From positions 54,561,380 through 54,625,379 of the forward strand of contig CM067370.1 in the NCBI GenBank assembly GCA_034401795.1: a stretch of 64,000 nucleotides of DNA, given 5' to 3'. This stretch comes from Chaetoderma sp. LZ-2023a (taxonomy: Eukaryota > Mollusca > Caudofoveata > Chaetodermatida > Chaetodermatidae). Of this stretch, positions 3,271 to 39,200 are shown in pieces. The notes under the pieces are model-generated. The model saw only the letters and a list, made by a program, of their open reading frames with translations. It had not been told where the DNA came from and made no database searches. A program made the translations under genes and the position numbers. The number at the start of each line of letters is the position of its first letter. The first letter of the stretch is position 1.

Positions 3271-3274
3271 ACCT

Positions 3275-5425
3275 TCAAACTCTCTTTCCTTGATACCCTC
3301 TAAAGGAAGAATGACCTCTGGATAAGATAAGATTACTCTTCAAAGAATTAGATATCTGAACCTCAGAGAGCTTCCTGGACCTTCTCTTAGAGGTAATGAA
3401 TCCCAAAGATCTGCAGACTGAACTGAGCGAACCATGAGACAGATCCGCCAAGGAACGAAACACTGATAAAGGAATCTGATCACCACGTTCTTGAGCCTTA
3501 AGAACAGCTTCAGATAACAGAGCAAGGAAATTGGCCAACTTAAGCTGGGATCTGCAAACAGACTCCCATTTAAAAAGATCAGTGGAATGCTCAACCTTGG
3601 AAGACTCCTTTAAATGTGAGGAAAGAACATCCCAGGAGGGACCAAAAAGAGACTGAGGAGTAGTAACCTTCAAATAATCTTCTTTGGGAACCTGAACAGG
3701 CGCATCAAATTTAGAAGAAAGAGAAAACTCCTTACAGTTAACATCATTAACCAAGAAATCCAGCATATCTACGACTAAGTTATCAATAGGGAGAACTTGA
3801 GGAGAGGAAGAAGAAGAATCAGACGTAGAGAGAGTAGACCCGAAAGAGGGAGTGTCAATAGCAAATTCCTCCTTAAGAGTAAGGGAAAGAGTAGAGGCGA
3901 TCCACCTGTGAGCTATGGACCAGTCTTCCGAAGAGGCTCTGACCGGACAAAACATCTTCAGATCCCTGGCCCTGACTGACTTGGGAACTGATGGAAGAGA
4001 AGAATGAGTAGGAGAGGAAGAAGAGATGAGAAGAGAAGAATCACCTGAAACTAAAGATTCAGCCGATCTAGAGGAAATAGGAGAACAGGGTCTTCTAGCA
4101 GACTCAGGAAGGGAAGAAGCTTGATCAGAAGGAAAAGAATCCCTACCATGATCCTGACTAGAAGACAAGAAAGGATGAACCAGAGAACTGGCAGAAAACC
4201 TCGAGAGGATCGAAAAACGAGCCGAAACAAAAGAACAATCGTGAGAAGAATCCCTAACCACAGAAAACAAAGAGAAATCTAAACCTGAATCAACAATTTG
4301 AAATTCTAACTCGGGAGAAAGAACAACGGAAACAATCGGATCAAGATGATCAAAAGAAGGAGAGGCAGAAGAAGAAGAAGGAGGAAGAGAAGAAATTGGA
4401 AGAACAGATGGAGAAGAAGGAGAATGATCTAAGGATCCCTGAGAAGAACCAATAGATGAAGAAAGACGGGAGAATCCCCGAGGAGGAGGAATAGATGATT
4501 GAAAAAGAGATGACGAATTAGACACATGACTGGACGAGAAATCCTTAGCTGAAAGAGAAGAAGCAGATGAGGAAGAAGGAATAGGATTAAAACCTGGAGG
4601 ATGAGAGGAAGAGAAAAAAGGAGACCTCGAGGCAGAGGAACTCAAAACAGCCTCACGAAAAGAAGGAGCAGAGGAAGGAGAAGACAAATCAACCTCAACT
4701 ACTTGAGATGGTGGGAAAGAACCATAATTAGAAACTAAAGAATCATGAGAAAAGATTCTGTGAGAAAATTCAGAACCAGAGCCTACAAAATTCCTATCAT
4801 CAAACTCCTTACGCCTATCCACTGAAAAATTCTCCGAATCTAAAGAAGAAACTGAAAATGGAAGCGTAAGTTGATGCTCGGATAAGTTCTTAGTCGAGGC
4901 TAACCGACTATGTTTATTCTCTATACCGGAAGTTATGTCCCAAGCGGAAGTCAGAAGTCTATGCGGATCTAAACGACGCGGAAGTACACCCCTAGAACCA
5001 GAAGCGGAAGTGTACAGACCAGAATCCAAACCGGAAACGGAAGCGCTTCTACCGGAAGACGAAAAATAATAAGGGTCCACAGACCCCGGATATCTGGTAT
5101 GACCGGAAGCGCTGCTAAAACCGGAATCGGAAGTAGGAACCAGATCTTGAAGACCCGGATGTCCTGAAAAACCGGAAGTCAGATCGGATACGGAAGGAAC
5201 AGAAGTAGATCCGGAAAACGGAAGTAAACCTGAGTCCCGAGGACCCGAATCCACTACAACTGAACCGGAAGTACTAGAAAAGCTTGATTGAAGACTTGGG
5301 TATAGGCGACCTACACACAATTTTGACGACCGGTATGACTGAAACTTTGGCATTAGCATAAGGCTTTTGGACGGGGGCTTCCGCCGCCGCCACCACTGCT
5401 TGAGGGTTATGCCTATCAGCCTCAA
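3275..5425 (-). CDS. DIRS Gag-like serine-rich protein, main part (copy B)
   Basis: This is a 716-residue open frame, strongly biased to serine (long Ser runs throughout the first 500 residues) with no recognisable enzyme motif. The more conserved C-terminal third contains SVRARDLKMFCPVRASSEDW, FKWESVCRSQLKLANFLALL and SLGFITSKRRSRKL, all of which recur in copy C (29530-30170). The position before RT and the end in a basic segment fit a DIRS Gag that packages RNA. It is the longest uninterrupted ORF in the window. The N-terminal cysteine-rich part lies upstream in another frame (5426-5994). Confidence 0.8.
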   Translation of the reverse strand: MRLIGITLKQWWRRRKPPSKSLMLMPKFQSYRSSKLCVGRLYPSLQSSFSSTSGSVVVDSGPRDSGLLPFSGSTSVPSVSDLTSGFSGHPGLQDLVPTSDSGFSSASGHTRYPGSVDPYYFSSSGRSASVSGLDSGLYTSASGSRGVLPRRLDPHRLLTSAWDITSGIENKHSRLASTKNLSEHQLTLPFSVSSLDSENFSVDRRKEFDDRNFVGSGSEFSHRIFSHDSLVSNYGSFPPSQVVEVDLSSPSSAPSFREAVLSSSASRSPFFSSSHPPGFNPIPSSSSASSLSAKDFSSSHVSNSSSLFQSSIPPPRGFSRLSSSIGSSQGSLDHSPSSPSVLPISSLPPSSSSASPSFDHLDPIVSVVLSPELEFQIVDSGLDFSLFSVVRDSSHDCSFVSARFSILSRFSASSLVHPFLSSSQDHGRDSFPSDQASSLPESARRPCSPISSRSAESLVSGDSSLLISSSSPTHSSLPSVPKSVRARDLKMFCPVRASSEDWSIAHRWIASTLSLTLKEEFAIDTPSFGSTLSTSDSSSSSPQVLPIDNLVVDMLDFLVNDVNCKEFSLSSKFDAPVQVPKEDYLKVTTPQSLFGPSWDVLSSHLKESSKVEHSTDLFKWESVCRSQLKLANFLALLSEAVLKAQERGDQIPLSVFRSLADLSHGSLSSVCRSLGFITSKRRSRKLSEVQISNSLKSNLILSRGHSSFRGYQGKRV

Positions 5426-5994
5426 GACTAATGTGGGTTTGACCCGGTGACCTGCTCGAGATCACCTTCAAGAGCTTTTTCGCTCTAGTTTTTTGTTTTG
5501 GAGACCTGATTTCTTGCATGGACGTAAGAGGAATCGGTTTTCCCCATTTGTGGGCACGCCCGCTAGCCCTCTGGGTATTGTCCAAATCAGAAGAAACTTC
5601 CTGTTTCTTGGCTTCCTGGATGGCAGAAGAAATTCTTTCGTCTAGCGACTTAGTCAAAACAGCAGCGAAGGATTCAAACCTAGCAAACAAAGCCAAAACA
5701 GCTTCAGAATTTGCCGAAGAGGCGCCCCCCCCCCCCCCCCTCCGTTGCTGATGGATTAGAAACATTAGTTTTTGCAAAAGACACAGCTTTTGTCTTACCA
5801 GCAACGGGGGTAGGGGAAGATCGACCAGAGGGCAGCGGTTGTTTAGTGGGCAAATCCGTAAAAAAGGTCTTAGAAACTGACGCCGACCACCCTTTGCATA
5901 CCCCACACATCGTTCGGGGGGGGGGGGGGGGGGGTACACGAGGTGCATTTCGAACAAACATGTCCTCCATACTCCGCAGAGTGAAGACAATCAC
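5426..5994 (-). pseudogene. DIRS Gag N-terminal cysteine-rich part (copy B), frame broken by homopolymers
   Basis: Read across three frames, this contains a leucine/alanine-rich segment (LALFARFESFAAVLTKSLDERI, about 5630-5700). Upstream of it is a cysteine cluster equivalent to CTTCTPTTMCGVCKGG of copy C. The frame is destroyed at two mononucleotide tracts: 16 C at 5725-5740 and 19 G at 5916-5934 on the + strand. Copy C has only 12 G at the first site, and at the second it has an ordinary ACTCCCACAACG stretch. The cysteine spacing suggests a zinc-binding knuckle at the Gag N terminus, which is inference. Confidence 0.7.
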
Positions 5995-6663
5995 ACTTGG
6001 AGGATGTGCATTTTGTCTTATCGGTCAATTTAACAGACTCCTAAAAACGAAAAAAGGGAACAATAAAGCATACAGCTTGGTATTTCGTTAAAAAGAGTCT
6101 AGAAACATAAAAACGCAATTCTAAGAAAGGCGGGAAAGTTCAAATTTGTTAACAAATCCCTAACGACAAGAAACAAACTTTCATAGGGAATAAATGTAAT
6201 TCCTTATAATGCACTAATTGAAAAGTGAGAAAGGGCTCTTGGAGTACACTAGAGATTTAACATGATGATGATGATATAGGCATAGTAAGATTGTTACCAC
6301 GAAAACGTTAGTACCCTCACGAAACCGGTAACATTTATATAAAATTCAATATAACCACGAAATACTTCCTAAACATAACTTAGGGAGGATAGACTTCATA
6401 GCAGGCGTAATTAGCAATAGGAAGTCCTCTCAAAAGTAAAGCTGACACAGTGCAAAGCTATAAAAACTCTCTGGTAATATTTGAGCAGTTATTCTGGAGA
6501 TGGACTTAACCAGTAGCCTGGTTGAGGGTCCATATTAATAGGAATAGGCATGGGGAGGTGTGTATGCAAGCATAAAAATCTTATTCTGGTAGCTAAATGC
6601 AGATAATTGATTTAGCAAGTAGTGATTGAACGGTAATGGATGTTTTTGTGGTGTAATAACAAC
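5995..6663 (-). repeat. DIRS copy B leader and left inverted terminal repeat
   Basis: No coding signal is seen in 6100-6480, which is AT-rich 5' leader. From about 6500 to 6663 the sequence matches the terminal repeat of copies C and D: agtagcctggttgaggg, gcaagcataaaaatcttatt, gatttagcaagtagtgattg, and finally ggatgtttttgtggtgtaat at the outer edge. It ends in aataacaac at about 6663, where an unrelated tandem repeat starts. Confidence 0.75.
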
Positions 6664-7565: not shown

Positions 7566-8760
7566 ACTCACCTGGCCTGAAAGGCCAAGAAAGCTTACGT
7601 CGTCCATACGTCAACTTTTCCTTTAAACAACTTCTTGAGAACTGCTGGGCCGATTTCAATTATATTTGGCACGAAGCATCCTTATGGCATAGTGATTCAA
7701 GTGTGGTCAAATGAAGCTGATCGGCCAATATGGCGGATGGCCATCTTGGATTTTGGCTGTTTTTTAGAAACGTCTAATAATCTCTGAAGTCGCTTGGGGG
7801 ATCGATGCAAATCTCATGAAATATGATCTAGGGCAAGAGTTGATCCAAGTTTGTTCACGGGAACTTGATTAGTCAAATGGTTTGGCGACCATCTTGGATG
7901 ACCTACCTTTAGCGAAAACAACTCCAGAACTGCTGAACAGATCAGGCTGAAATTTGGCAGATATGATTAGGGACTAAGGGCCATTAAAGTTTCAATGGAA
8001 GTTGATCCATCAAAAAACATTGCTGCCGTGGACCACTCAAAATGTAGCATGTTTGGCGGCCATATTGGATATTTCTATTTGATGGATTTTGAAGCTGAAA
8101 CTGGTTTTATATAGGTTTTTGGGTATTCTGATTTCAAATTTGCCATGATCGAAACTGTTGGATAAACGGTTTGGCAGCCATCTTGGATCTTTTTCCTGCC
8201 AAAAAAACCCCATACTAAAGCAATGGGAAATTAAAAATTATGTCTCGAGAACAACTGGACCGATTTTAATTATATTTGGCAGGAAGCATTTTAGGCCATA
8301 GAGATCCAGGTTTGTTCAAAGGGAGTTGATCGACCAATTTGACCGGCAGTCATCTTGGAATTTGGTCAATTTTTTGAAACGTCTTAAATAATCTTCTCCG
8401 AAACTGCTTGGGGGATTGATGCAAACCTCATGAAATATGATCTAGGGCAAGCGCTGAACCAAGTTTGTTCAACGGAATTTGATTGGTCAAATGGTTCGGC
8501 TGCCATCTTGGATGACCTTGATTTCGTGAAAACGACCTGAACGGATCGGGCCGAAATTTGGCAGATATGATTAGGGACTAAGGCCATTAAAATTTCTTCA
8601 AGGGAAGTTGATAAGTAAAAAAAATTGTTCCCGTGGAATACTACTTATAATCACTGAGCCAATTTTAATCAAACTTGGCTAACCCATCTTCACAGATATT
8701 AGATTGGTAAATTTTTCTAGTGATCATCTTGTTTTGTTTGTTTGTGCCAGTGGTCAATAA
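7566..8760 (+). mobile_element. Helitron-like repeat, 600-bp-core type, 3' end missing
   Basis: It starts with a diverged form of the terminal hairpin seen at 24845 (actcacctggcctgaaaggc). It continues with the same core: ccgatttcaattatatttgg, gccatcttggatttt, and tgaaatatgatctagggcaa. About two core units are present (starting near 7611 and 8227). No 3' end like ccttgggcctcttg is visible before 8760. No ORF is credible. It lies upstream of VKORC1 exon 2. Confidence 0.65.
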
Positions 8761-9754: not shown

Positions 9755-11270
9755 TTACTAATTAGGACTAATATTTAATGCCTTTACTTAAAGTTTTCAT
9801 ATCCCCTTAAATATAGACACTTTTACCCAGACTGCAATGTTACCCAGCATGCAATGCTTCTTAGCATGCAACGCTGTGCCTCCATAATCGTTGTAACTAT
9901 TGGGCGCCATATTCGTTTAGTCTATTGTCTGCACAAGCCAGGATTTCTCAAACAAAACCAACGCGCTTGCACATGCAAATAGTCATTTGTCCTCCAGCTC
10001 TGGAAGCGTTAGCATGCACGTAGGATGTATTCACGGCAGTATATTCCACAGTCTGTATTTCAACGCAGTTCAGAGAAAGTGTGTCAATTTCCAGAAAATA
10101 CGAGAAAGCTTTTATATACTTTGAAAATAATTTGCGTGAAAGTTTTTGCTATCAATAACAGCACCAGCATTCAGTCAAATTATTGTCAAAATAATTACTA
10201 GATAATGCGATTACTACCTGCTACCAATTTGATACTAATTTGAATGAACATTGTTGCTGCAAGAGGTTTCAGTCTGTATGTTCTAAAATAATCATTATTT
10301 CACTCAACACTCGCTACGTATTTGCAGTGCAAGTACTGTAAATTGTTGCTGAATAAGGCACCAAAAACGTTATCAAATTGTTGTCCATAGAATCATATGA
10401 CGTTCAATATTGCTATCTAAGTAGAGTGAGTATATGCCCAAAATTTGCTTTGCCTACGTGAAGGAAATATTTAGTCAAGCTAGGGTATGTATGTTTCTGC
10501 TTAATCAATGCATTTCAATCAAACGCACAATCCCGGCAACAAAATTACACGCTGTTTGCTAATCATTCAGTCTTCACGAGAAAGCATATGTAGGGCATAG
10601 GCCTATGCTCAATCTACTTATATAGTAAGATATTGACTGCATGTGCACGGATAACAATTCTACAATGCCGTTGGTGTCTTAGTAATCAGTAGCGAGTGTA
10701 GACTGAAAATTATAATGGTTATTTTAGACTGAAAGTTGTTGCAGAAACAATGTTCATTCAAATTAGTATAAGATATGTTGCAGGAAGTCATCGCATTACC
10801 TACTAATTATGTTGACAATAATTTAACTGAATATTGTTGCTGTCATTTATAACAACAACTTTCACGCACATTATTGTCAAAGTATATAAAAGCTTTCTCC
10901 TATATTCTCCAGGAAATTGTCACACTTTCTCTGAACAGTATTGAAATACAGACTGCCGAATGTAAGTACGTGCTTACGCTTCCAGAGCTGGAGGACAAAT
11001 GACTATTTGCACGTGCAAGCAGGTTGGTTTTGTTTGAAAAATCTTGGCTTGTGCAGACAATAGACTAAACGAATATGGCGTCCAATACTTACAACGATTA
11101 TGGAGGCAGGGCATTGCATGCTGGGTGGCATTGCATGCTGGGTAGCATTGCATGCTGGGTAGCATAGCACTATGGGTAAATTGATCAGAAATCAACGGGT
11201 ATGTCATATGTCATGCAAAAGTGTCTATATTTAAAGGGATATGAGAACTTTAAGGCACCTAATTCTGCAG
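9755..11270. mobile_element. Foldback element FB1 with about 500-bp inverted arms
   Basis: The left arm (about 9755-10290) and right arm (about 10725-11270) are inverted copies. For example ctccagctctggaagcgt near 9992 pairs with gcttccagagctggagga near 10978, and tgtctgcacaagcca near 9930 pairs with tggcttgtgcagaca near 11045. Arms also pair through agcttttatatactttga (left) and tcaaagtatataaaagct (right). A 17-bp unit, gcattgcatgctgggt(a/g), is repeated three times at about 11112-11163 in the right arm. The outer ends carry catatccccttaaatatag (left) and ctatatttaaagggatatg (right). No transposase is seen, so it is non-autonomous. A second, interrupted copy lies at about 36700-39200. Confidence 0.75.
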
Positions 11271-19885: not shown

Positions 19886-19997
19886 TTAACCCTTTCACCG
19901 ATGCATTCCCTGTATCTCATTTTCAAGGCAACCATACAGTAAAACAGATAATTATATTGAAATGAATTTGATTGGAAGTAGTCGGGAGTCATCATCT
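19886..19997. mobile_element. TTAA MITE (family N), left half, split by the 3.8 kb element
   Basis: It starts TTAACCCTTTCACCGATGC and contains atctcattttcaaggcaacc, identical to the left part of the N copy at 41517-41707. It is interrupted at about 19997. The right half resumes at about 23812. Confidence 0.75.
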
Positions 19998-20400
19998 CAC
20001 AGGGTGGAAATGTAGTATAAAGATTTTCTGTTGATTAGTATGAGTTTATAAGGGGCTTAGATGATAGTTTTCAGAGGGTGTATACAATTTCGAGCGGTGG
20101 CATTAAAAAAAATCCAAGATGGCCGCCGCCACACCTTAAAATCATTAATATCGCCATAACTTTCAAAGTACTGATGTTATGGCCATAAATCTGGGATCTG
20201 TATCCATGTTTTCAACCATGAGGCATGTAATGGAAGATGTATTTTTGCAATTTGATCATTTTATTTTGGCATAAATCCAATATAGCTGTCAAAACTCCTC
20301 CGGAATGTTGTGAAAATACTAAAATTGCTATGACTTTGGATGTATTCATGCTAGAGATTGAAATTTGCGTTCTACACGCACATTTTCGACCATGAGGAAT
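19998..20400 (+). repeat. Left long inverted repeat of the 3.8 kb element
   Basis: It pairs with 23430-23811. Alignment by eye shows clear similarity broken by substitutions and small gaps; the first 25 bases after the outer 10 are the most diverged. Confidence 0.7.
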
Positions 20401-20975
20401 CCAGTGGAGGGCTTATTTTCATGATTTCATCATCTCTGCATCGTGAATATCTGATACGGCTGTCAAATTCAGCCTAAAATGGTGTAATGCGGCCTACTAC
20501 CATTTTTACTGGTGTATAGATTTCCTTACGAACCCATATTAATAAACAGGAAACGTTTATACCGCACGCCCAGCTTGTGGGCCATATGATCAAATATCTT
20601 CCTAACTAATGTACTATTTGTTTTCGTTAACTGAACACCATGCACTTAGTAATAATAATGTATTGCATAAATCGCTATGCACAAAAATACATTAACTTTA
20701 TTATCTTTATTATGCTATGCTAGATCAATACTAATTTCTATAGTAATAAACAAATAGCCTGTAATAGTCTAACAGACACACAATACAATAATTAATGACT
20801 GTCATGTCGCCTATATAATACAAATGTATGGATCATAAATTGATTTTGAGGTCAACGATTATCAAGAATCATAGCCACCAACCTCACAATCCGACTGCCA
20901 AATCAGTGACACATATCGTCAGATTATTGAGCGGTCACTGCATATGCTACATTACCAAACCCATTGATCGAACAC

Positions 20976-23201
20976 TCAAAGTAAATCTTGTGTGTTGAGG
21001 AATGCCTCGGTGGTAGGAGATGGGGAAAAGAGATTTGTTGATGATGCCGCATTCCTTCCCGTTTTCAACTTCCGCAGCGTCACCCTGGACTTTTTCATGG
21101 ATGTGCATGTCTCAGTCACCTTTCCATGTGCAGCACAAATGAACCATGTAGCTTGTGCCATAACAGAATCCATACTGGCGTTGATATAACCAATGTTGGC
21201 AAATGAGAAGTTCCGTTTCTTAGCGACTCAACACAGTGGCGTTGTCTACTCCATGCAGTAATGCAAGTGTGCCAGCACCAGATAGTCCACGATAGCGAAC
21301 AGGTGGCTGGCGATGTCACTGCTTTCCTGCTGTAGCCTGTATGTCGACCACAGCCAGCTCTCGAATTAGCGAAGACATGGTCATTGATGCTCTATTCGTA
21401 CACATTTTAGTAGTGGATGAGTAGAACAAAGAGATCAGTGTCGTCACATACAACACGAACCGATTTGTCCAGGATAGAAGTAGCAATTGCATACTGTGTG
21501 ATGATGATACATGCCTCTCTCTCATGTGTGAAGCGGAGACCTCGGCTATCTAACTTCATACCGTGGACAACTCGATGAGGAAATCAGTGATGCTGGCAAT
21601 GATCAGGCAATGTTTCTGTGTGGCTTTTGTGTACAAATCCATATAAAGCAGGCCTTCTAACAACATGGCATTCAACTGGATTTTGTTTTTGTCACAGATA
21701 AGATCACTTGTTTCGATGGAATCAGCATATCGTGTGTCAAATTGTGCACCCGACTTGATCCTCACCTCCACACGGAGGACCTCCGCATATGTGTGGACGT
21801 TTTTATACTGCTCGCATAATACCTGTCGAACACTACGGTAGCATTGATAAGATCACTTGTTTCAATGGAATCAGCATATCATGTGTCAAATTGTGCACCC
21901 GACTTGATCCGCACCTCTACACGGGGGACCTCCACATATGTGTGGACGTTTTTATACTGCTCGCATAATACCTGTCGAACACTACAGTAGCGTTCCCTAC
22001 TTGCAGTGCTTTGTGGACAAATGCCTGTGATGTAACGACATACTCACGGAGCATGATTTTGTCAGATGGCCAGTCGATTGCCCACAGCAGTCATGAGACA
22101 TCGGCAATCTTCAATTTCCAGTCACCATAGAGGGTACGCGACCAGTTCGCACGAGAGTAAGTCGTCAAAATTAATGTCTGGTGCACTGACCAACAGTCCA
22201 ATGACATGTGCATATGTAAGCTCTTAGTCGTACATCTTTAATTTCCCAACTAGGATATATTTCTTCTTTGAATCCATGGTGACCACAACCTTTAACAGCT
22301 TATAAAATGATGCTGACCAGCTACACTTGAATGCTACCACCTGGCTCTGGCCGATGTTGAGGGCATCATCTGCTATCACATCAGGATGAACCACTTGTCC
22401 TGTGACATTGTTCATCAGAGCAGCATCAGGATGAGGTATCATCGAGTGAATCTATGCACATGGTGAGAGTGCTATGAATGCTGCAGCAGTCATCCTGGTC
22501 GCTCTTTTTGTGGGTCTGACTCCGCTCCTTGTGATGCGTGTGAACAACTTCTTGTTTATCATCGCGCATTGCTCTGATATCACGTGACAGCTCCCCACAT
22601 GTGGTAAAACTCAAAGCCTACATGACCATTTGATTCCAATCTGTTGCCAATCCTACTGCTAGTGCAGGACCATGATCCAAACGCAATGAGCTCCAAGTTT
22701 TTTGAGGATTTTCTGATATTTGTGCACACACATGCTTGAATGCTGGATCGTCAGTGGGTTTACTTAGATTACCACCACAGTAGCTAACATTACGTTCTGA
22801 TATGAATTTGGATCTGCAAGAGTTGTGGCGATGCGCATCTGCATCATGCAGATTGGCAACCACACAGTACTCGCTGTCTGACTGTTGCACCTAGCTTGTC
22901 ATTTCATTTACTACATACATCTAAGATAAATTGTTTGTACTCCTGACCATTGGCATTTTCAGCAGTGCGTATGAGAAATGCCAGGTTACGGCGATTATGT
23001 GGAACCTTACCGTCATACTCTGATGTAAGAGTACATACTGTTATTATCAGAGCAAAACAGGCAATATTTCCTGAGATTAAATTTGTCGGGTCCAGATCGA
23101 AAACGTTTTGGAGCACTTTGTTCATCATCATCACCCCAAGAAAGCTTGCGCACATGAGTGACGTGTGCTTCTACATTAGTGGAAGATATATACCTTGACA
23201 C
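20976..23201 (-). pseudogene. Degenerate gene of a recurrent animal protein family (CLFC...DDTDLFVLL...TTEAF type)
   Basis: Read 5'->3' on the minus strand across several frames, the pieces appear in this order. KYCLFCSDN comes first (about 23060), then RNLAFLIRTAENANGQEYKQ (about 22960), CVVANLHDADAHRHNSC (about 22830), IPHPDAALMNNVTGQVVHPD (about 22440), and RVVCDDTDLFVLLIHY (about 21410-21460). GLSGAGTLALLHGVDNATVL (about 21270) and SPTTEAFLNTQ (about 20990) end the series. I recognise this order from a large family of uncharacterised proteins in cnidarians, molluscs, amphioxus and fish. Its typical blocks are a CLFC cysteine motif, an ADAxYHxxC motif, DDTDxFVLL, LTGCDTVA and LPPTTEAF. The acidic DDTD block hints at a metal-binding, nuclease-like fold, which is inference. 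Stops, frameshifts and a 149-bp duplication show it is dead. Confidence 0.65.
21697..21994. repeat. 149-bp tandem duplication inside the pseudogene
   Basis: The segment beginning gataagatcacttgtttc at 21697 is repeated from 21846 with few differences. Both copies share tgtgtggacgtttttatact and end near cgaacactac(g/a)gtagc. Because 149 is not a multiple of three it shifts the frame. Confidence 0.9.
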
Positions 23202-23429
23202 TCATGATTTATGGATTCTAATGATAGGATTGTCTGGCTCCGATTCCAGCAGTAATGCAAGCTGTTGATGGTAACACTCGTTCAAATCTGTACTACATCC
23301 TATAATGGTATCAATACATGGTCTGTAACCATTTTGTAACTTCTCCCTCTTTTTTATTCAGGCAATTTGAAATTGTGTCGATCATTGAATAAGCAGACAT
23401 CATAATATATGATGAAATCTTGAAAATAA

Positions 23430-23811
23430 ACCAATTATTGTATTTTCAGCACTTTCGCGGGTGTTTTGGCAGTCATATTGGATTTCTGCCCAATAACAAT
23501 GATCAAATTGTAAAAATATTTATTCCACATATCTTCCATTACATTCCTCAGAGTTGGAAATATGTGTACACAGCCCGCATTTATGACCCTAACACTAATG
23601 CTTTGGAGGTTATTGTGATATTAGTGATTTTGAGGCGTCACGGAGGCCATCTTGGATTTTTTTAAATGCCACCGCACAAAATTTTACACACCATCTGAAA
23701 ATTATCATCTAAGACCCTTATGAACTCACACAAACCAACAAAAAAACTTTATACTACATTTCCATCTTGTGGTCCATATGGGCCAATATCCTCCTGACTA
23801 AAGCTGTTGCT
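23430..23811 (-). repeat. Right long inverted repeat of the 3.8 kb element
   Basis: Inverted counterpart of 19998-20400. It contains ggaggccatcttggattttt and ctttatactacatttccat and ends with cctcctgacta. Confidence 0.7.
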
Positions 23812-23923
23812 GCCTAAGGAAGCAACGGCTTCCAGTCAAATTAATTTCAAAATATTCCACAGAATAAGTTTTATGTCGTAAAGAACATACTTTTTCAGGG
23901 ATTTGTCGGTGACACTATTTTAA
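23812..23923. mobile_element. TTAA MITE (family N), right half
   Basis: It resumes with agctgttgctgcctaaggaa and contains cggcttccagtcaaattaat and aagaacatactttttcaggg, as in the intact N copy at 41517-41707. It ends at a TTAA (23920-23923) that also starts the next MITE. Confidence 0.7.
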
Positions 23924-24947: not shown

Positions 24948-26945
24948 CAATTATATTTTGCAGGAAGCATCCTTAGGGCATTGGGATCCAAGTTTGTTTA
25001 AATGAACCCGATCGGCCAATTTGGCCGGCAACCATCTTGGATTTAGGCCGATTTTAGGAAATGTCTAAAAATCTTCTCCGAAACCGCTTAGGGGATTGAT
25101 GGAAACTCATGAAATATGATCTAGGGCAAGAGCTGAACCAAGTTTGTTCAAGGGAATTTGATTGGTAAAATGGTTCGGCGGCCAACTTGGTTGACCTAGT
25201 TATAGCGAAAATGACTCCAGAACCGCTGAAGGGATCGGGCCGAAATTTGGCAGATATGATTATGGCCTAAGGTCCATTAAAGTGTGTTCAAGAGAAGTTG
25301 ATCCGTCAAAACACATGGCCGCCATGGGCCAATCAAAATATAGCATGTTTGGCGGCCATATTGGATTTTTTATTTGATGGATTTTGAGGCCCAAATTGGC
25401 GTTGTATGTGTTTTGGGGTATTTTGAGCCCAGATTTGAAATTTTCGAACCTGTCGGATAAATGGTTTGGCGGCCAATATTGGATCTTTTTCCTGCCTAAA
25501 GCTCCCATACTAAAGCAATGGGAAATTTAAAATGTTTTCTGGAGAACTGCCTGGCCGATTTCAATTATATTTGGCAGGAAGCATCCTTAGGGTGTAGAGA
25601 TTCAAGTTTGTTCATACGAAGCCGATCGGCCAATTGGGCCGGCAGCCATCTTGGATTTAGGCCGATTTTAGGAAACGTCTAAAAATCTTCTCCGAAACCA
25701 CTTAGGGGATTGATGGAAATCTCATGAAATATGTTCTAGGGCAAGCGCTGAACCAAGTTTGTTCAAGGGAACTTGATTGGTCAAATGGTTTGGCGGCCAT
25801 ATTGGTTGACCTAGTTATAGCGAAAATGACTTCGTCTCCAGAACCGCTGAAGGGATCGGGCCAAAATTTGGCAGATATGATTATGGCCTAAGGGCCATTA
25901 AAGTTTGTTCAACTTCGATCCATATAGCATGTTTGGTGGCCATATTGAATTTTTTTATTAGATGGATTTTGAGGCCGAAATTGGTTTTGTATGTGTTATG
26001 TGGTATTCTGAGCTCAGATTTGAAATTTTCGAAACTGTCAGATAAATGGTTTGGTGGCCATCTTGGATCTTTTTCCCACCAAAAGCTCCCATACTGAAGC
26101 AATGGGAAATTTAAAATGTTTTCTTCTGGAGAACTACCTGGCCGATTTCAATTATATTTGGCAGGAAGCATCCTTAGGGTGTAGAGATTAAAGTTTATTC
26201 AAACGAAGCCGATCGGCCAATTGGGCCGGTGGCCATCTTGGATTTTGGCCGATTTTTAGAAACGTCTAAAAATATTCTCCGAAGCCGCTTATGGGATTGA
26301 TGCATACCTGATGAAATATGATTTAGGGCAAGAGCTGAACCAAGTTTGTTCAAGGGAACTTGATTGGTCAAATGGTTTGGTGGCCATCTTGGTTGACCTA
26401 CTAGTAGCGAAAACAACTTCAGAAATTTGGCAGATATGATTAGGGACTAAGAGCCATTGAAGTTTGTTCAAGGGAAGTTGGTCCATCAAAAAACCTGGAC
26501 ACCATGGGCCAACCAAAACATAGCATGTTTGGTGTCCATAGTTGACTTATTTATTTGATGGATTTTGAGGCCAAAATTGGTTTTATGTGTTTTTGGGTAT
26601 GCTGATCTCAAATTTGCAATTTTCGAAACTGTCAGATAAATGGTTCGGTGGCCATCTTGTTGATAAAGAGCATTCTAGTTGAAATGCCTATGGTCCAGGT
26701 GAGCGATACAGGCCCCTTGGGCCTCTTGTTATGCTTGCTTACATTCCTCCATATGCCTATTCCATATTAATAATTACCCTCAACCAGGCTACTGGCAGGG
26801 TACATCCCCAGTATATAGCCTGATAAAGACTGGCACCAGTCTGTACTCACTCCCTGTTGACGCCTATCACTAAGCATGCCCGTGCATTGGAGACCAAATA
26901 GGAAACCGATTCACTTTTCAATTATTCTGCAAGCAGAAGTCTGCA
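24753..26945 (+). repeat. DIRS copy C left inverted terminal repeat, interrupted
   Basis: The outer edge is gttgttattacacc. The repeat runs to 24844 and resumes at 26729 with tgcttgcttacattcctcc after the insertion. It then contains ccctcaaccaggctactgg and gactggcaccagtc and ends near ccgattcactttt. The inverse of these blocks makes up 33486-33740. Confidence 0.85.
24845..26728 (+). mobile_element. Helitron-like repeat, 600-bp-core type, complete, nested in DIRS
   Basis: The 5' end forms a hairpin (gctcacctggcc pairing with ggccaagtgagc). The 3' end has a smaller hairpin (ggcccc/ggggcc-like: aggccccttgggcct) followed by cttg. Between them are three tandem core units of about 600 bases starting near 24900, 25520 and 26104. 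Each has ttcaattatatttggcagga, gccatcttggattt and tgaaatatgat(c/t)tagggc. No ORF longer than about 80 codons makes sense, so it is non-autonomous. Terminal hairpins and a tandem core fit Helentron-type non-autonomous elements; that class is inference. Confidence 0.75.
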
Positions 26946-27439
26946 AAATAGTCCAGCTAAGTTTTTTATAGCTTTGCGCTGTGTCAGCTTACTGCTTTGA
27001 GAGTTCTACAATCATATGAATGCCTAATATGAAGTCTATCCTCCCTAAGTTATGTTGTTGGAGTATTTTGTGGTTTTATACTCTATATCAAAATGTTACC
27101 GGTTTCCGTGATGTATCTTGTTTTCGTGGTTATCATTTATAATGATTAAAGTCATCATCATTTCAAACCCTCTATTACTCTAGGAGCCTTTTATTCACTT
27201 ATATCAGTATTCATGTTTAGTGCATAAGAAGGAAAACGTTTTATATCCCTTTGAAAGTTTGTTCTTTTGTCTTTAGAGATTTTTGATATTTGAATTTGAA
27301 GTTTCCTGCCTATTCTATAACATGCATTTTTGCTTTATATCAGACTATTTTTAAAGAAGTTCTTTTAAGTTTTTTCGAAGCTGTATGCTTTATTCTTTAT
27401 TTTTATTTTTCGTTTTTAGGAGTCTTAGATCGGTCGAGA

Positions 27440-30400
27440 AAGTCAAGTGCACGTCCTCTAAGTGCGATCGAGTTCACTCTGCGGAGTTTGGAGGCCATGT
27501 TTGTCTAAAGTGCACTACGTGTACTCCCACAACGATGTGCGGGGTATGCAAGGGAGGTCTTCGACCGTGTCAAAAGCTTATTTTAAGGATTTTTCGGCTA
27601 AGTCCGTGTTGCCCTCTGATCGCTCTCCCCCGGTTGCTTCAATGTCTAAAGCTCTGTCTTTTGCTAATTCTTCTATATCTAATCCACCAGCAATGGAGGG
27701 GGGGGGGGGTCCTCTTTGTCTAATTCTGATGCCGTGTTAACCATTTTTGCTAGATTCGAGTCTTTTGCCACTGTCTTGACGAAATCATTAGATGAGCGAA
27801 TATCGTCTGCCATCCGCGCGGCTTAAGGATGTTTCATCCGAGTTGGATGATAACGAGAAGGCTAGCGGGTGTGTCCGCAAATGGGGGAAGCCTACTTCCC
27901 TCATGTCCAGGCAAGAGATTCAGTCCCCGAAACCGAAGACTAGAGACTCAAAGAAGAGGCTCTGGAAGGTGAACTGGAGCAGGTCAATGGGTAAAACCCA
28001 CATAAGTCTTGAGGAGGGGCATTACCCTCAAGCAGTGGTGTCGGCGACTGAAGTCCCCGATTCAAACTCCTATGCCAACGTCAAGTTTTCTGTTATACCG
28101 GAAGCCAGGAATGTTAAAAGATCGCCTATTTCTAGCTTAATGCAGTCAGGAAGTTCGGTAACTTCCGGTTTATCAAGCACTTCCAGTTTGTGCTCAGTAG
28201 ATTCGGATCTCCAAGACCTGGGGCTACTTCCGGCTTCCGTTTCCGGTTCTGTTACTTCCGCTTCCGGTTTTACGTTCGTTTTTTTCAGGACATCCGGGTC
28301 CTCAGGATCGTGTTCCTTTTTCGACTTCCAGTAGGATGTTATCCAGTTCTGTTTCCTCTTCCGGTATTAATACTTCCAGTTTTAGTAGCTCTTCCGGTCC
28401 TACCGGACATCCAGGTCCTCAGGACCCAATTAATTTTCCGACTTCCGGTAGGCGCACTTCCGTTTCCGGTCTTTGCTCTTCCGCTTCCGATTTGAGGGGT
28501 GCACTTCTGGGTCTTCAAGATCCGGCTAAGCATCCGGGTTCCGTTTCTGGTTTTGATGAGACTTCTGGTTTGGTCAATGGCCAGGGTCTGCAAGATCCGG
28601 CCAGGGCCTTATCCCAGCGCCAACTTCCGCTTCCGTTTTCCAGTTCTTCCGGGATTAGAGTTTCAGGTCCCTCTTCTAGTCGGTTAATTTTTTCGGACTC
28701 GCATTTGATTGATAGGCATTAGGTTTCTGTTGATAGAAATTTGGTTAGCTCTGGCTTATCTCCATCTTGTCCTATTGAAGTTTCTGACTTTATTTTCGTG
28801 ATTCAATTAGTTCAGGATTTTGGATCTCAGTCTCCTTCCCAAGTAGTTAATGTTGACGCGTCTTCAGGTTCTTTTGCTCCCTCCTTTCGTGATGCAGTCT
28901 TGGGTTCTTCTGACGCGAGGCTCCCGCCCTCTCGTTCCTCTCAAGTTCAGGATCATTATTCTTCTCTTTCGGCGAAAGATTTTTCTTCCAGTCATGTTTC
29001 CAACTCTTCTCTTTTTCAGTCATCTTCTATCCCTTCTCCTCCGGGGTTTTCCCCGACTTCCTTCTATCAATTCTCACCATGGATCTTCAGATCCTGCTCA
29101 TTCGTCTTCTGTTCATCTTAATTCTTGTCTTCCTCCTTCATCCTCTTCTGCTTCTTCTTCCTTCATCTTGACCCGATAGTTTCTGTTCTCTCCTCTGAGT
29201 TAGAGTTTCAAATTGTTGATTCGGGTCTGGATTTTTCCTTGTTTTCTGTGGTTAGGGATCCCTCCCTTGATCAGTCTTTTGTGTCGGCTCGTTTTTCCAT
29301 TCTTTCGAGGTTTTCAGCTAGTGGTCTGGTTCGTTTTCCCTTGTCTTCTGGTCAGGATAATGTCATTGACCCTATTCTTTCTGATCAATTTTCCTCTCTG
29401 ATTCTTTGCCTGTTTCCTCTCCAGGCGTCTAGGAGGCCTTGCTCTCCTCTTTCTTCTAGAACTGTTGAATCACTGGTCTCTGGTGACTCTTCTCTTCATC
29501 CTTCTTCCTCTCCTAATCCTTCTTCTATTTCTTCAATTCCCAAATCAGTCAGGGCAAGGGATCTGAAGAGGTTTTGTCCGGTCAGGGCCTCTTCAGAGGA
29601 CTGGTCCCTGGCTCATAGGTGGATTGCTTCGTCTTTCTTTTCCCCTTAAGGACGAATTCTCTATAGACCCTTCTTCTTTTGGGTCTGCTCTCTCATCTTC
29701 TGATTCTTCTTCTTTGTCTCCTCAGGTTCTCCCAGTTGATAATCTGGTAGTTGACATGTTAGACTTCTTTGTGAACGATGTTCATTGTAAGTAATTTTCT
29801 CTTACTCCCAAATTCGATGCTCCTGTCCAGATTCCAAAGGACGATTATTTACGAGTTGCCACTCCTCAATCAGTCTCTGGTCCTGCTTGGGAAGTTCTTT
29901 CCTCTAATTTAAAGGATTCTGTGAAGGTTGAGTTCTCTTCTGATCTTTTTAAGTGGGAGTCTATGTGTAGGTCACAGCTCAAGTCGGCAAATTTTCTTGC
30001 TTTGCTTTCAGAGGCAGTTCTTAAGGCTCATGACAGAAATGAGCAGGTCCCTGTTGAGGTTTTTCGCTCTTTGGCCGATATTTCTAGAGGTTCTCTTAAC
30101 TTCGTTTGCAGATCTTTAGGTTATATTACCTCAAAGAGAAGGTCTAGGAAGCTTGTTGAGGTTAATATTTCAAGTAATCTTAAGAGTAGTTTTATTTCGG
30201 CTCCTTTCGGCCAGGATATTTTTGGTCAGTCATCTTCTAATCTTATTCGGTCCGAGTCTAAGCGCCTGAGAGCCTCTAGGGATCTTCAGGCTCAGATTTC
30301 TCTTTCTAAACCTTCTGTGAAAAGAGACTTTTCCTCTGTTAAGAGCACCAATTCCTCCCCTAGGAGGAAGAGTCTCAGACCCGATGAATTTGGTGCATCT

Positions 30401-30450
30401 CCTACCAGGATAGTTAATAACTCTAACAGATCTTCTAACTTCCAAGATTG
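27440..30450 (+). pseudogene. DIRS Gag-like gene (copy C)
   Basis: The N-terminal part carries a cysteine-rich segment, KCTSSKCDRVHS then CLKCTTCTPTTMCGVCKGG (27440-27560), that could bind zinc. A serine-rich middle with repeated CTTCCGG/CCGGAAG-type DNA follows (28140-28700), then the conserved end: FKWESMCRSQLKSANFLALL and SLGYITSKRRSRKL (29940-30155). Frame changes occur at a 12-base G-run (27698-27709) and near 27800, 28700, 29100 and 29640. A stop in the HCK-type segment lies at about 29791. Copy B retains a long open frame of this region. Confidence 0.8.
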
Positions 30451-30684
30451 ATCCGCAGAGGATCGTTTTGAGTCTATCTCCTCCCACCATTCTAGATCCC
30501 AGGTTCGGCAACCCCCTGTGCTTATTTTTACAGACCTAGTTCACGGTCTAGAGGTCGGTCATCTTTCAGAGGTTTTCAAAGTAAGAGAGTTTGAAGGTGT
30601 GGCCACCTCCCGGTTAGGTTCAGCCCTTTCTCCTCTTTCAATCTCTTCCCTTCCTCTTCCTGTGCCTTCGGATCCGTCGGTGTA
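30451..30684 (+). other. Gag-RT junction of copy C
   Basis: The region corresponds to the proline-rich start of the copy B RT frame (LPLPVPSDPSV-like in one frame). No separate gene. Confidence 0.4.
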
Positions 30685-31378
30685 GTGCCTTCCGCCCAGC
30701 TTGCAAGTTGGAGGGCGCCAGTCTCTGTTCTGGGAGACTTGGCATTCCCTCGTTCAGGACTCCTGGCTAGTAAATCAGATTCGGTGGGGGTATGCACCTT
30801 CTTGGATCCTTCACCCTTCTCCTCTGTCTCTTATTCCCAAGTGGACTCCAGCTCCTTCCAATCTGGAGAAGTTGGCTGCCCTAGAGGAGTTGGAGTCCAT
30901 GATTGTCAAGGAGGCCATAGAAGAGGTTCCCCTTTGGAGTGTAGACCCGGGCTACTACTCAATCATTTTCTTAGTTCCCAAGAAAACAGGAGGTTGGTAT
31001 CCTATCATCAACCTAAAAAAGTTGAACCTCCTTATTTTAACCCCAAAGTTCATAATGGAGACCATCTCCCAGATCATCGCCAGTCTAGATCCAGGCATGT
31101 TGACTTCCTCCATAGATCTCAAGGACGCCTGTCTAGATCCAGGCATGTTGACTTCCTCCATAGATCTCAAGGACGCCTACTTCCATGTGCTTAGTCATCC
31201 GTCGTTCCGAAAGTTCTTGAGGTTCGCCTACAAGGATCGGGTATGGCAGTTTCGAGCCATGCCCTTCGGCCTCACCATGGCCCCCTTCCTCTTCACTCGT
31301 CTAGTTTCAGCCGTGGCAGGAATCTTGCAAAGCAAAATCTTCCTCAATTCTTTCAGAAGTCATTGCAGAGGTCTGTAG
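30685..31378 (+). pseudogene. DIRS reverse transcriptase (copy C), internally duplicated and truncated
   Basis: The frame 30701-31378 encodes VGGRQSLFWETWHSLVQDSW, INLKKLNLLILTPKFIMETI, motif A (SSIDLKDAYFHV) and FRAMPFGLTMAPFLFTRLV. A 48-bp in-frame tandem duplication (31083-31130 and 31131-31178) repeats motif A, giving SSIDLKDA twice. After VAGILQ the sequence jumps to a later part of the domain, so the YxDDW active site is absent. The protein ends at a TAG at 31376-31378. Confidence 0.9.
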
Positions 31379-31384
31379 TCTGGC

Positions 31385-31980
31385 ATGCAGCCTAGGTTGG
31401 ATCTTAAATCTCAAGAAATCAAGCCTAGTTCCCTCTCAAGTCTTCACGCACCTGGGCGTTTCTTTCGATCTGGCTCAGGGCTTTCCATCAGATCTAGAGT
31501 ACAGGAGATCCTCTCCTTTGTATGGAGGTTTGCAACCTCCTCCTGTGGTGCCGCAAGATTTATCTAGTGTCCTCTCATGTCCCAGGCAGTCTGAATTTTC
31601 TTGCGGACCAGTTGTCTCGTCCCAGCAAATTCGTCCACACAGAGTGGCAGTTAGACGTCGGTTGCCAGAGCGATTTTCAAACTCATGGATCGTCCCCACG
31701 TAGATCTGTTTGCGACTTGTCTAAATGCCCAGATCTCCTCTTTCATGTCTCCTTTTCCGGACAGTCCTGGACAGGAATGTTCGCATATGCGTTGCCTGCA
31801 ACGATCCTGATTCCTTTGGTTTTGAAGGTCAGGGACCAGTTCTGCGAAATTCTTCTGATAGCTTCCTTTTGTCCAAAGCGGATCTGGTTTGTAGATCTTC
31901 TCGATCTCCTGGTAGACTTCCCTCATCTTCTTCCAGTCTCTCCAGATCTTCTTTCTCAAGTAAGGGGAATGTGTCTTCAT
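31385..31980 (+). pseudogene. DIRS RNase H remnant (copy C)
   Basis: Only the ends remain. An RT-connection segment (LKSQEIKPSSLSSL) is joined directly to the last RNase H block (WCRKIYLVSSHVPGSLNFLA, then DQLSRPSKF). The IFTDAS, LELWAV and SDNST blocks present in copy B are deleted, a loss of roughly 0.5 kb at about 31515. The linker to the recombinase (FPDSPGQ-like and LIASFCPKRIWFVDLLDLLV) is still readable. Confidence 0.85.
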
Positions 31981-31984
31981 GCAA

Positions 31985-33060
31985 ACCCAGAAATCTTCAA
32001 CCTGTGTGTTTGGAGGATTTCAAGCATCAAGTCCCTGAGGTCAGAGTTTCTTCAAGATCTCAGGAGATTATTTATTCTGCCAGGAGGGAGTCGACCCGTC
32101 GAGTTTACAAGGGTCGACTTAATATTTTTGGAGAATGCTGTTCAGAACATCATCTCGTGCCTGATTCTGTTTCTATTCCCCAGGTGTTAGATTTTTTATC
32201 CTATCTCTGATTCTTTACAGTTATCTGCTAACACAGTCAGGGGTTATAGATTTTCTTTGGCATCTTCTCTTCCTTGTCTTTTGAACGCCGCTGTCAAGGA
32301 TACAAAGATTCTTAATGCTTTTATCAGAGGATTGGGTAATATTCATCCTCCAGTAGCTAAGCCTTTGCCTTCCTGGAATTTGGCCTTGGTTCTTCAGGTT
32401 TTGGCAGGCCGCCATTTTGAACCTCTTGCTTCTATTAGTATAAAACTTTAACTCGTAAGGCTGTTTTTCTTGTTGCATCTGCTTCTGCTAGAAGACGTTC
32501 AGAAATTCATGCTCTCCGCCGAAAAGGATAGATTTATCGTATATGGGGACGGTTTAGTCATATCCCAGAAGGGATTTTTTATCGAAGACACAGTCTAACC
32601 GCTTCCCCGCTAAACCGATCATTTTAAAATCATTATTTTCTTTTTCGCCATCTGACAGATATTGGTGTCCTGTCAGGGCATTAAAAGTTTACAAGCAACG
32701 AACCGATTTTAAAAGTTCTGATCCATCCCATTTATGGGTTCCGTATGCGGAGGAGGTACCCAGACCAGTTCTTAAGGCTACGATTGCCAGATGGATTTGT
32801 GAGCCCATCAAACTTTGTTACGAGATTGCTTCTCCTGAACAAGTTAATCTTTCTCATATAAAAGCTCACGATGTTAGGGGAATGGCTACCTCCTTTGCTC
32901 TGTTCGCTGGCTCTTCTTTAGACAAAGTCATGTAGGTCGCAGGCTGGAAATCCACTTTTACTTCATTTTATTTAAAGGATCAGAGTGAAGCGGCCTCCTT
33001 TTTTGTAATATCACGATTTTAACTTAAAAAGCCGAAGACCAGTTACCAAGCACATCCCAT
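31985..33060 (+). pseudogene. DIRS tyrosine recombinase (copy C)
   Basis: The recombinase is readable but broken in several places. Its start overlaps STRRVYKGRLNIFGE (32090-32135). Then come a stop near 32208, SARRRSEIHALRR-like (about 32490), DRYWCPVRALKVYKQRTDF (about 32655) and HDVRGMATSFALFAGSS (about 32870). Next is VM*VAGWKSTFTSFYLKDQS, with a TAG at about 32933 where copy A has CAG. The arginine, HxxR and tyrosine positions can all be located. Several frame changes occur at 32450-32600. Confidence 0.85.
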
Positions 33061-33861: not shown

Positions 33862-35157
33862 GCTTACCTGGCCCAAAGGGCCAAGTGTTATATCATGGCG
33901 GCCGGCTGTCGTCCGTCAAATCGCATCTCAACGGTTTGACCGATTTCAACCAAATTTGGCTGGAAGGATCCTATCTATGGTGGTAGCCTCCAGGACTTCG
34001 TTCAAAATTTTGATTGGTCAATTTTTCCGACAACCATCTTGGATTTTCCAAAGATTATCCCAAAATCCTTTAAAACGCTACTCTAATATCATGGCCCGAT
34101 TTCAAGGACACTAATAATCCTGTGGCTGTACGCCTCACCACTTCTAACGAGAATTTTTATTGGTCAATCTTTCCGGCAACCATCTTGGATTTTCTTAACT
34201 TTTCTGGAAATTAGTTAAAAGGCTACTCCTCATTAACCGCTTGAATGATTTCCAGCATGATTGGAAGGACCCTAGAGTGTTGTGCTTCAGAGCGACAGAA
34301 TTTTGATTGGTCAATTTTTCCAGCGACCATCTTGGATTTTCTGAAAGTTTCTAGAAAACAATTAAAAGGCTACTCATTAACCACTCAGCCAATTGCAAGC
34401 AAAATTGGTTGAAAGCACCTTAAAGTGGTATGCTTAAGATCTTGTATACAGAATTTTGATTGGTAAATTTCTTTTGGCAGCCATCTTGAATTTTTGGAAA
34501 AATGGCTTGAAATGGTAAGACACTACTCCTCATGCAATTTCAACCAAACTTAAGGCTGGTAGGTTTCAGAACATGTATACAAAATTTTTATTGGTCAATT
34601 CTTCCGGTAGACATCTTAGACTTTTTTTAATTTTGGAAAATCAGTTAAAAGGCTACACATTAACCACTTGAACGATTTCCAGCAAAAACCTAGTGTTGTG
34701 CTTCAGAATTTTGATTGGTCAATTTGTTCGGTGACCATCTTCAATTTTTCGAAAAATGGCTGCTCATTAACTGCTTGGCCGATTTCGATCAGACTTGGCT
34801 GGAAGGATCATATGCCATTCCTCATAACCACATGGGCAATTTCAAACAAATTTTGCTAGAAAGATCCTATATCCTCTAGAAATTCTATTCAGGATTTTGA
34901 TAGGCGGTCATTCATTTGCTAAAAAATTTCCATAATCATTTAAAAACACAACTTAGTCAATGGCCCAATTTCAACAAAACTTGGGTCGAATGGTCCTATG
35001 ACGGTAGGCTTCAACATATCAAACAAGAATCTTGATTGGTAATTTTTTGGGGTGGCCATTTTGGATTTTCAGAAAATTATCCATCATGTCTATTTAAATG
35101 CAAATGGTTTGAACTGCTAATGGTCCAGATGAGTGTCACAGGCCCCTGAGCCTCTTG
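33862..35157 (+). mobile_element. Helitron-like repeat, 170-bp-core type
   Basis: It has the same kind of ends as 24845-26728: a 5' hairpin (gcttacctggcccaaagggc) and a 3' end reading ggcccctgagcctcttg. The core differs: six or seven units of about 170 bases with gaattttgattggtcaattt, gaccatcttggattttc and ggctactcattaaccac. No credible ORF. It sits just outside the right end of DIRS copy C. Confidence 0.75.
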
Positions 35158-36699: not shown

Positions 36700-39200
36700 A
36701 AGCTCTCAGGCCCCATTAACTAAAGTTCAATTTGCCCAGAATGCAACGTTCAGACATTACATTCATTTCAAATACCGGACGCCATATTTGATTCTATTAG
36801 CTGTACTGATTGGGGACTTCTCAAATAAAACCGGGCCCTAGTCAGTGCAAACAGATCATTCATTAACTAGCTCTTGAGGAGTAAGCAAGGCAGTAGCTTA
36901 ACACCCCGTGTATGGTTCAATACTGCTTAGTTCACATATATCAATTTCAAAAAACCCTTACAAGAAAACTGTTGTATATTTTGTCTTTCACTAAAAGCGG
37001 TTGCTTCCTTCACCAATACATTTCAGTCAAACGGTTGTCAAAATAAATTGAGTGATACTTGCTCCAGATTTGAGAGCTATTTAAATGAAAATTGTTGGTG
37101 CAACTACTTTCAAAGTATTCTCAAAATAGTCAGCAAGAATTTCCATTGACACACCTGCTGAAGATTACAAGAACAAAAGGCCCAAGGGCAGAAAGCATCC
37201 CTAGGGCATAGAGATCCAAGTTGGTTCAAAGTAAGCCAATCAGAAAATTTGGCCAGCGGTCATCTAGGATTTTAGCCAATTTTTAGAAACGTCTTTAAAT
37301 ATCTCCGAAACCACTTGGGGGGATTGATTCAAAACTAATGAAGTATCATCTAGGGCAACTGCTCAACCAAGTTTGTTCAAGGGAGTTTGATTGGCCACAT
37401 GGTTCGGCGGCCATCTTGGATGACCTAATTTTTGCAAAAACGACCGGACCGCTGAACGAATTGGGCTGAAAAATCATGGCCGCCGTGGACCAACCAAACT
37501 GTAGCATATTTGGCGGCCATATTGGATTTCTTTATTAATGGATTTTGAACCTGAAATTGGTTTTGTATAAGTTTTTGTGTATGCTGATTTCAAATTTCCA
37601 CTTTCGAAAATGTCGGATAAATGGTTTGGCGGCCATCTTGGATCATTTTCCTGCCAAAAACTCCCATATTAAAACAATGGGAAATTTAAGCTGTTTTCTA
37701 CAGAACCACTGGCCCGATCTCAATTATATTTGGCAGGAAGCATCCTTAGGGCATGTAGATCCAAGTTTGTGCAAAGGAAGCCGATCGGCCAATTTGGCTG
37801 GCAGCCATCTTGGATTTTGGCCAATTTTTTTGAAACGTTAAAAAATCTCCGAAACAACTTGTGGAATCGATTCAAAACTCATGACATATCATCTAGGGCA
37901 AGAGCTGAACCAACTTTGTTCAAGTGGACTTGATTGGCCAAATGCTTTGGCAGCTATCTTTGATGACATAATTTTCACAAAAATGACTTCTACAGAACCA
38001 TTGAACGGGTTGAGACGAAATTTGTGAGATATGATTAGGGACTAAGGGCCATTAAGTTTGTTCAAGGGAAGTTGATACGTAAAAAAACATGGCTGCTGTG
38101 AATAAATCAATATGTAGCATATTTGGTGGCCGTATTGAATTTTTTTATTTGATGGATTTTGAAGCCGAAATTGGTCTTATACCTGGTTATTTTGATATGC
38201 CGATTTCAAATTTTCACTTTCAAAACTGTTGGATAGACAGTTTGGTGGCCATCTTGGATCTTTTTCCTAACAAAATCTCCCATACTGAAGCAATGGGAGA
38301 TTTTACATGTCTTCTCGAGAACCACTGGGCTGATTTCACTTATATTTGGTAGGAAGCATCTTTCGGACAGAGATCCTACTGTTTTCAGAGGAAGCCGATC
38401 GGCCAATTTTGGATTTTGGCAAATTTTTAGAAATGTCATTAAAAATCTCTGCAACTGCTTTCAGGATTGACTTGAAAATCATGAAACATCATCTAGAATA
38501 ACAGTTGAAACAAGTTTGTTCGAGGGAACTTGAATGGCCAAATGCTTCAACATCCATCTTGGATGACCTTATTTTTATGAAAACAAGTTCTCCAGAACTG
38601 CTGAAGGGATCGGACTGAAATTTGTGATGCATGGTTAGGGACTAAGTCATTCTAGTTCTTGACTTCTTGTTGCATTTTGGCGAAAACCTTAGGGTTCAAC
38701 TTATAGCCGATGGCCTTCTTACATGAAGTGCCTATGTTTCAGGTTAGCGAAAATAATTTGACAAAGTTGTTGCAGTAACAATTTTCAATCAAATAGTTTT
38801 CAAATCTGGAGCAAATGCCACTCAATTTATTTTGGCAATGATTTGAATGAAATGTGTTGCTGCCCTAAACTGCAACAACTTTCAGGCAAATTCTTGTCAA
38901 AATATACAGCTTTCTTGTATGGCTCTTGAAATTGATACACTTGCACTGAACAGTATTGAAATAAGTTCCTCGAAACCACTTGGGGGGGGGGGGGAATTGA
39001 GCTTACCCCTACTGCTGTGACTATGTTCTAGGTGCTTACACCTCAAGATTGGTCTCACAAATGACCTGTTGCATGTGAAGACCAGGACTTTTTCTTTGAG
39101 AAATCCTGGACTGTACAGACAATAGACGAATATGATGTGCAATAGTTTCAATGAATATGGAGTCCGGTTATTGCATGCTGGTATCAGGGTTTTCTCTATT
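36700..39200. mobile_element. Foldback element FB1, second copy, interrupted
   Basis: The left arm (about 36700-37160) and right arm (about 38755-39200) are diverged inverted copies. They match the element at 9755-11270, for example ctgtacagacaatagacgaa near 39112 and tatgatgtgcaatagtttca. The centre is occupied by a Helitron-like core (37170-38752). Confidence 0.6.
37170..38752 (+). mobile_element. Helitron-like repeat, 600-bp-core type, truncated, nested in FB1 copy 2
   Basis: It has about three core units starting near 37190, 37680 and 38290 (tcaattatatttggcaggaa, cagccatcttggattttgg). Its left edge reads aacaaaaggcccaaggg, the inverse of the family's 3' end, so the left end looks rearranged. 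The right edge stops within the caggttagcg block before the terminal hairpin. Confidence 0.65.

Follow-up and report, generated by a model that had tools for sequence, protein, structure and literature searches.

A probable AcademX-like DNA transposon in a Chaetoderma genome carries the remnant of a gene for a putative transposase-nuclease

We analysed a 64,000-nucleotide stretch of the genome of Chaetoderma sp. LZ-2023a (assembly GCA_034401795.1, contig CM067370.1, positions 54,561,380 to 54,625,379; hereafter the window), in which long inverted repeats enclose fragments of a gene with CLFC, DDTDLFVLL and TTEAF blocks. The element (19979-23800) is probably a dead, internally deleted cut-and-paste DNA transposon of the Academ superfamily, similar to AcademX, to which we likened it by published description. 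It would in all probability be an ordinary kind of DNA transposon, already known. In this genome, a DNA transposon is now tied to a protein family for which our Pfam scans gave no transposase or nuclease model.

Ends, insertion site and genomic copies

The ends of the element were set by lining it up with genomic copies. The original prediction had placed it at 19998-23811; the element is indeed there, with each end off by about 10-20 bases. We found that its arms are imperfect inverted repeats of about 400 bp that end in 5'-TAGTC. The left terminal inverted repeat (19979..20440, plus strand) starts with TAGTCGGGAG, where most other copies have TAGTCAGGAGG, and the right one (23400..23800, minus strand) terminates in CCTCCTGACTA. 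The arms pair over 241 bp at 82% identity (19998-20238 with 23531-23771) and over 75 bp at 79% (20231-20305 with 23453-23527), with further shorter extensions, so the repeats of about 400 bp reported earlier around the gene fragments are real. Comparison with genomic copies also identified a target-site duplication, AAG, on the left (19976..19978) and on the right (23801..23803).

The element sits inside a palindromic repeat, whose left half (19953..19978, plus strand) and right half (23801..23854, plus strand) were recognised by alignment to element-free copies. Once the flanks of the window element are joined they form a hairpin, and element-free copies of the repeat in four loci (L050, L026, L051 and L016; 70-72% over 128-141 columns) align with them straight across the junction. 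The joined flanks also match window positions 41529-41670 at 76% over 160 columns, with a gap at the centre. The earlier argument that a split miniature inverted-repeat transposable element shows the unit to have inserted is borne out, since joining the flanks restores a palindromic repeat that also occurs unoccupied elsewhere.

We searched the genome (2.44 Gb, 2,753 contigs) with the left arm, scoring 40 of 131 first-look candidates, and found at least 43 matches. Twenty stretches from 19 places were fetched, chosen from the arm matches; L012 and L013 abut, and L014 resembles a near-duplicate of L012. All 20 carried an arm together with fragments of the family protein. Across most copies the shared sequence opens with 5'-TAGTCAGGAGG and closes with CCTCCTGACTA-3'. 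Target-site duplications were tallied in 12 copies with both ends examined, the window copy included; L014, L015, L018, L019, L021, L026, L027 and L028 were left out because the right end was absent, incomplete or beyond the fetched DNA. A script that tolerated errors in the terminus found the flanking 3 bp to be exactly equal in 9 of the 12 (AAG in the window; TCA, TAA, TTA, ATA, TTA, TTA, CTA and TAA in the others). The script misread L010, which by eye has TAT on both sides, bringing the exact cases to 10 of 12; the flanks of L022 differ at one of three bases, and the right end of L009 was not readable. Eleven copies whose length was measured span 3.8-9.3 kb, and L010, L016, L022 and L025 are each about 5.4-5.6 kb. 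A genome search for the arms had been proposed earlier as a check, and the fetched copies do hold family gene fragments, with exact 3-bp duplications in 10 of the 12 examined at both ends. In L018 (3148-7921) several kb of DNA, with open frames of up to 920 amino acids (aa), split the element copy and are probably another inserted element.

The association between gene and arms was then examined from the side of the gene. The fragment with the DDTD block gave 49 genomic matches, 38 of them close (54-100% identity) and 11 distant, one of the latter being short and 59% identical. A listed arm match lay within 12 kb of 28 of the 38 close matches, against a random-site expectation of about 0.04%. 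Six of the remaining 10 had a fetched locus, and an arm was present in four of these six, giving 32 of 38 overall. In loci fetched by DDTD match, an arm was found within about 1.5 kb in 15 of 20; no nearby arm was seen in L033, L034, L041, L045 and L047, and for three of these five an arm is listed at a distance of up to 12 kb. Conversely, for 9 of the 43 listed arm matches the list of DDTD matches had none as near as 12 kb, and the element core could still be seen in the fetched DNA for all five of these nine that were examined (L015, L007, L024 and both L011 arms).

These counts bear on the possibility that an unrelated inverted-repeat element captured a host gene or came by chance to flank it. 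The five of 20 gene-fetched loci with no arm in the stretch would suit this explanation, as would the 6 of 38 close gene matches for which no arm was found at all (four of these six had no DNA fetched). It is opposed by the arm association itself, at 28 close matches and four more on inspection of the locus, and by the same architecture in two distant relatives, one copy each. Host-gene capture was rejected on these grounds as extremely improbable, and chance inverted repeats were likewise considered and rejected. The proposal that the protein family belongs to a mobile DNA unit holds in this genome, given the arm-gene association, the insertion, the duplications and a frame that lies inside the arms (below). 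Since the family is carried by a transposon, gene predictions that contain these blocks should be labelled transposon proteins in annotation.

The gene remnant and the encoded protein

The CLFC, DDTDLFVLL and TTEAF blocks had been predicted to lie in this order on the minus strand. We found them so, with matches in genomic copies. From open frames and genomic copies, the remnant begins with an N-terminal fragment with KYCLFC (23016..23201, minus strand), followed by N-terminal fragments in two frames with an HNSC motif (22684..23032, minus strand; HNSC block 22684-22887). A linker region (22131..22433, minus strand) is 40% identical to aa 460-561 of an 877-aa frame in the relative L049. By sequence comparison, the start of the nuclease-like region and its ADVS, LLW and FDRYY..IK blocks occupy 21848..22168 (minus strand). 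A repeat search revealed a tandem duplication of 149 bp, 95% identical, within the remnant (21697..21994), and part of the FDRYY/IK block is also present in the duplicate. Open frames and genomic copies further defined a fragment with the HEREACIII and VVCDDTDLFVLL blocks, in which DDTDLFVLL lies (21410..21583, minus strand), and a C-terminal fragment with PTTEAF (20979..21176, minus strand).

Comparison with longer genomic copies placed an internal deletion junction at 22686..22687; the window copy breaks relative to the others at core position 2185/2187, at about window position 22,686. At this junction 14 of 15 measurable stretches have 1.6-3.3 kb of extra DNA, and L027 has 0.8 kb. The window copy is short by about 1.7 kb, including the D-D-E-like part, and by comparison with L049 the deleted part is the region with the DNFD, DQQLY and IETTY motifs. 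What is left of the gene is split among several frames with stops. With the internal deletion, the broken frames and the 149-bp duplication, the window copy is not expected to yield a functional protein.

L049 (C8) is a distant relative in which 207, 188 and 877 aa occupy abutting stretches of one frame, split by two stops, with a 214-aa tail containing a Cys cluster in another frame. Its ends are TAGTCC and its flanks are ATA and ACA. When its nuclease-like region was used to search the genome (143 of 4,708 candidates scored), at least 148 matches were obtained, 19 of them at 241-247 bits and 47-48% identity. Twelve of these 19 carry a 1,485-aa open frame. That 12 matches share an equal frame length at near-equal scores suggests recent activity. 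For one of them, C12, both ends (L056 and L057) and a 941-bp inner piece were fetched, and 313 aa of nuclease-like sequence were read. The arms of C12 are inverted repeats (76% identity over 382 columns) that start with TAGTCC, and the element is flanked by a perfect TCA/TCA duplication. It measures 6,404 bp, and with a stop at 28,750,812 as the limit of its frame, the 1,485 codons fall entirely within the ends. Intact members outside any inverted repeats would have told against the original prediction; in the one copy tested, the frame is inside the arms, which favours the transposon reading.

A single protein appears to be encoded by the fuller copies and L049. It has a Cys motif at the N-terminus, followed by D-D-E-like motifs and a FEN1/XPG-like region, and its tail is rich in Cys. 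The DNFD, DQQLY and IETTY motifs, chosen by eye, recur in several fuller copies and in L049, with not every motif in each copy, and they would represent the core of a D-D-E transposase. The FEN1/XPG-like region holds HEEAD, DDTD and GCD..GIGK blocks. Acidic active-site blocks and a helix-two-turn-helix, in order, are the hallmark of the FEN1/XPG superfamily. For comparison we used the genome's own FEN1, which is 64% identical to human FEN1, and by eye the FEN1-like blocks stand in the same order. The element protein shares with FEN1, XPG, EXO1 and GEN1 the order IDAS, FD....K, EEAD/EAEA, DDTD/EDMD and GCD..GIG, and a hand count gave a D-to-GIG spacing of 7 in both. It differs from them in an overall similarity near noise and in the longer sequence that separates block 2 from block 3. 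The local GCD..GIG match had E values of 0.013, 0.048 and 0.018, each for a single comparison. The region is probably a nuclease, a call that depends on block order, the statistics being weak or negative. The earlier idea that the DDTD block is catalytic is plausible in so far as DDTD is one of several ordered FEN1/XPG-like acidic blocks; the weak statistics apply to it too.

Database searches added little to this picture. Neither Pfam nor NCBIfam has a transposase or nuclease model that matched the scanned protein parts; among the rows of these scans, DUF6054, FmdE, Hanta_nucleocap and Clathrin-link were set aside. A Pfam scan of the L049 frames gave neither a transposase nor a helicase match. 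PDB sequence searches with the family protein produced no profile match, and phage records contained no match. No relative was confirmed in viral and genome contig collections, where FEN1 itself also gave no confirmed match, so these scans had little reach.

The subterminal motif and other repeats in the window

A motif search located CAAGATGGCCGCC 136 bp from the left end of the window element (20115..20127, plus strand) and CAAGATGGCCTCC, with one mismatch, 146 bp from its right end (23642..23654, minus strand). In three families, one copy of each, an inward-pointing CAAGATGGCNGCC with at most one mismatch was found at 135-136 bp from the left terminus and at 144-146 bp from the right. A second copy often follows 12 bp further inward, and the exact form of CAAGATGGCNGCC is present in 29 of 58 loci. 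The motif, which resembles a YY1 site, may be a binding site for the transposase or a host factor in the element ends. The 13-bp form with at most two mismatches occurred 61 times, with a TAGTC-type terminus 90-200 bp outside in three cases, two being the window element's own. With only 3 of 61 occurrences near such a terminus, other repeats must carry the motif. The window has 30 occurrences of the 15-bp form TCCAAGATGGCNGCC with at most one mismatch, where 0.01 would be expected, at 7884-8512, 25027-26242, 34175-34490, 37406-38244 and 42163-43082; the motif is therefore not confined to these elements. A tandem array at 42105-43193 (about 151 bp, 7.4 copies) contains many copies of the CAAGATGGCC motif.

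Several further repeats were noted in the window. An element of about 5 kb with open frames is present in two long copies in opposite orientation (1331-6466 and 26963-31990), which are 70-78% identical in three pieces, with parts of a third copy at 43957-45874. One of nine frames scanned gave an RT_RNaseH match below the Pfam cut-off, and the element is perhaps a retroelement. A 28-bp tandem repeat (35 copies, 96%) lies at 39662-40643. An inverted pair of about 500 bp, 82% identical and with short spacing (9824-10317 and 10689-11161), is likely another repeat element.

Proposed mechanism and relation to known transposons

Both catalytic activities, transposase core and nuclease, are predicted. 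The element protein would bind subterminal sites within the long inverted ends, and its D-D-E core would cut at the TAGTC ends and join them to target strands 3 bp apart. Gap repair after joining would then yield the 3-bp duplications. In excision or repair, the nuclease region would probably act by trimming or opening flaps, hairpins or the second strand. With a putative transposase core and a probable flap-type nuclease in one protein, an accessory nuclease role in excision becomes testable.

The duplications raise the question of whether the element belongs to another known superfamily with 3-bp duplications (Harbinger, Zator or EnSpm) and carries an extra nuclease. The length agrees, and many of the duplications are AT-rich (TTA, TAA). 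Against this, the L049 frames had no Pfam transposase match, and the duplications also include AAG, TCA, CTA and TAT, leaving no fixed TWA target. EnSpm ends are of the CACTA type, whereas those found here are TAGTC. All three were rejected, and we consider membership of any of them very unlikely.

A superfamily separate from Academ, characterised by TAGTC ends, 3-bp duplications and the fusion of a transposase with a FEN1-like nuclease, is a doubtful but more serious alternative. In its favour, no Pfam or NCBIfam transposase or nuclease model recognises the scanned parts, and Academ was compared by description only; duplication length, element length and probable nuclease nevertheless match AcademX as described (PMC10045372, PMC10294476). 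A fuller form of this proposal would place in one polypeptide a D-D-E transposase and a FEN1-like flap nuclease, with the host-factor-like CAAGATGGCNGCC near-fixed at 135-146 bp from the termini across families. The element families are about 30-50% identical in protein where compared. We hold this fuller form to be less probable again.

Kolobok (KolobokE, KolobokP and KolobokD) also combines a DDD/E transposase with an accessory nuclease, but the accessory nucleases named for it are of other types. The Kolobok target is TTAA, and no TTAA target was seen for the element here.

The likely and preferred assignment, to Academ and within it to AcademX, is based on the 3-bp duplications, the length of about 5.5 kb and the probable nuclease. 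An XPG nuclease and a Cys8 finger are marks of Academ and would fit as well. Among the papers listed in our literature searches, none combined Academ with XPG in the role of transposon nuclease. Academ is counted among the superfamilies with a DDD/E transposase (PMC9587614). AcademH, placed in the same superfamily, has duplications of 9 or 10 bp and AcademX of 3 or 4 bp, a difference attributed to the encoded helicase and nuclease (PMC10045372). With its 3-bp duplications and no Pfam helicase match in the L049 frames, the element was rejected as a member of AcademH. Curated bivalve Academ elements have a mean length of 5,565 bp (PMC10294476), and four copies here are close to this. The original label of an undescribed system is not sustained, as the 3-bp duplications, the length and the probable nuclease fit the Academ superfamily as published (PMC10045372, PMC10294476). 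Compared by description only, the element is like AcademX in its 3-bp duplications, its length, its transposase-like motifs with a probable nuclease, and the terminal inverted repeats found in the window, the genomic copies, L049 and C12.
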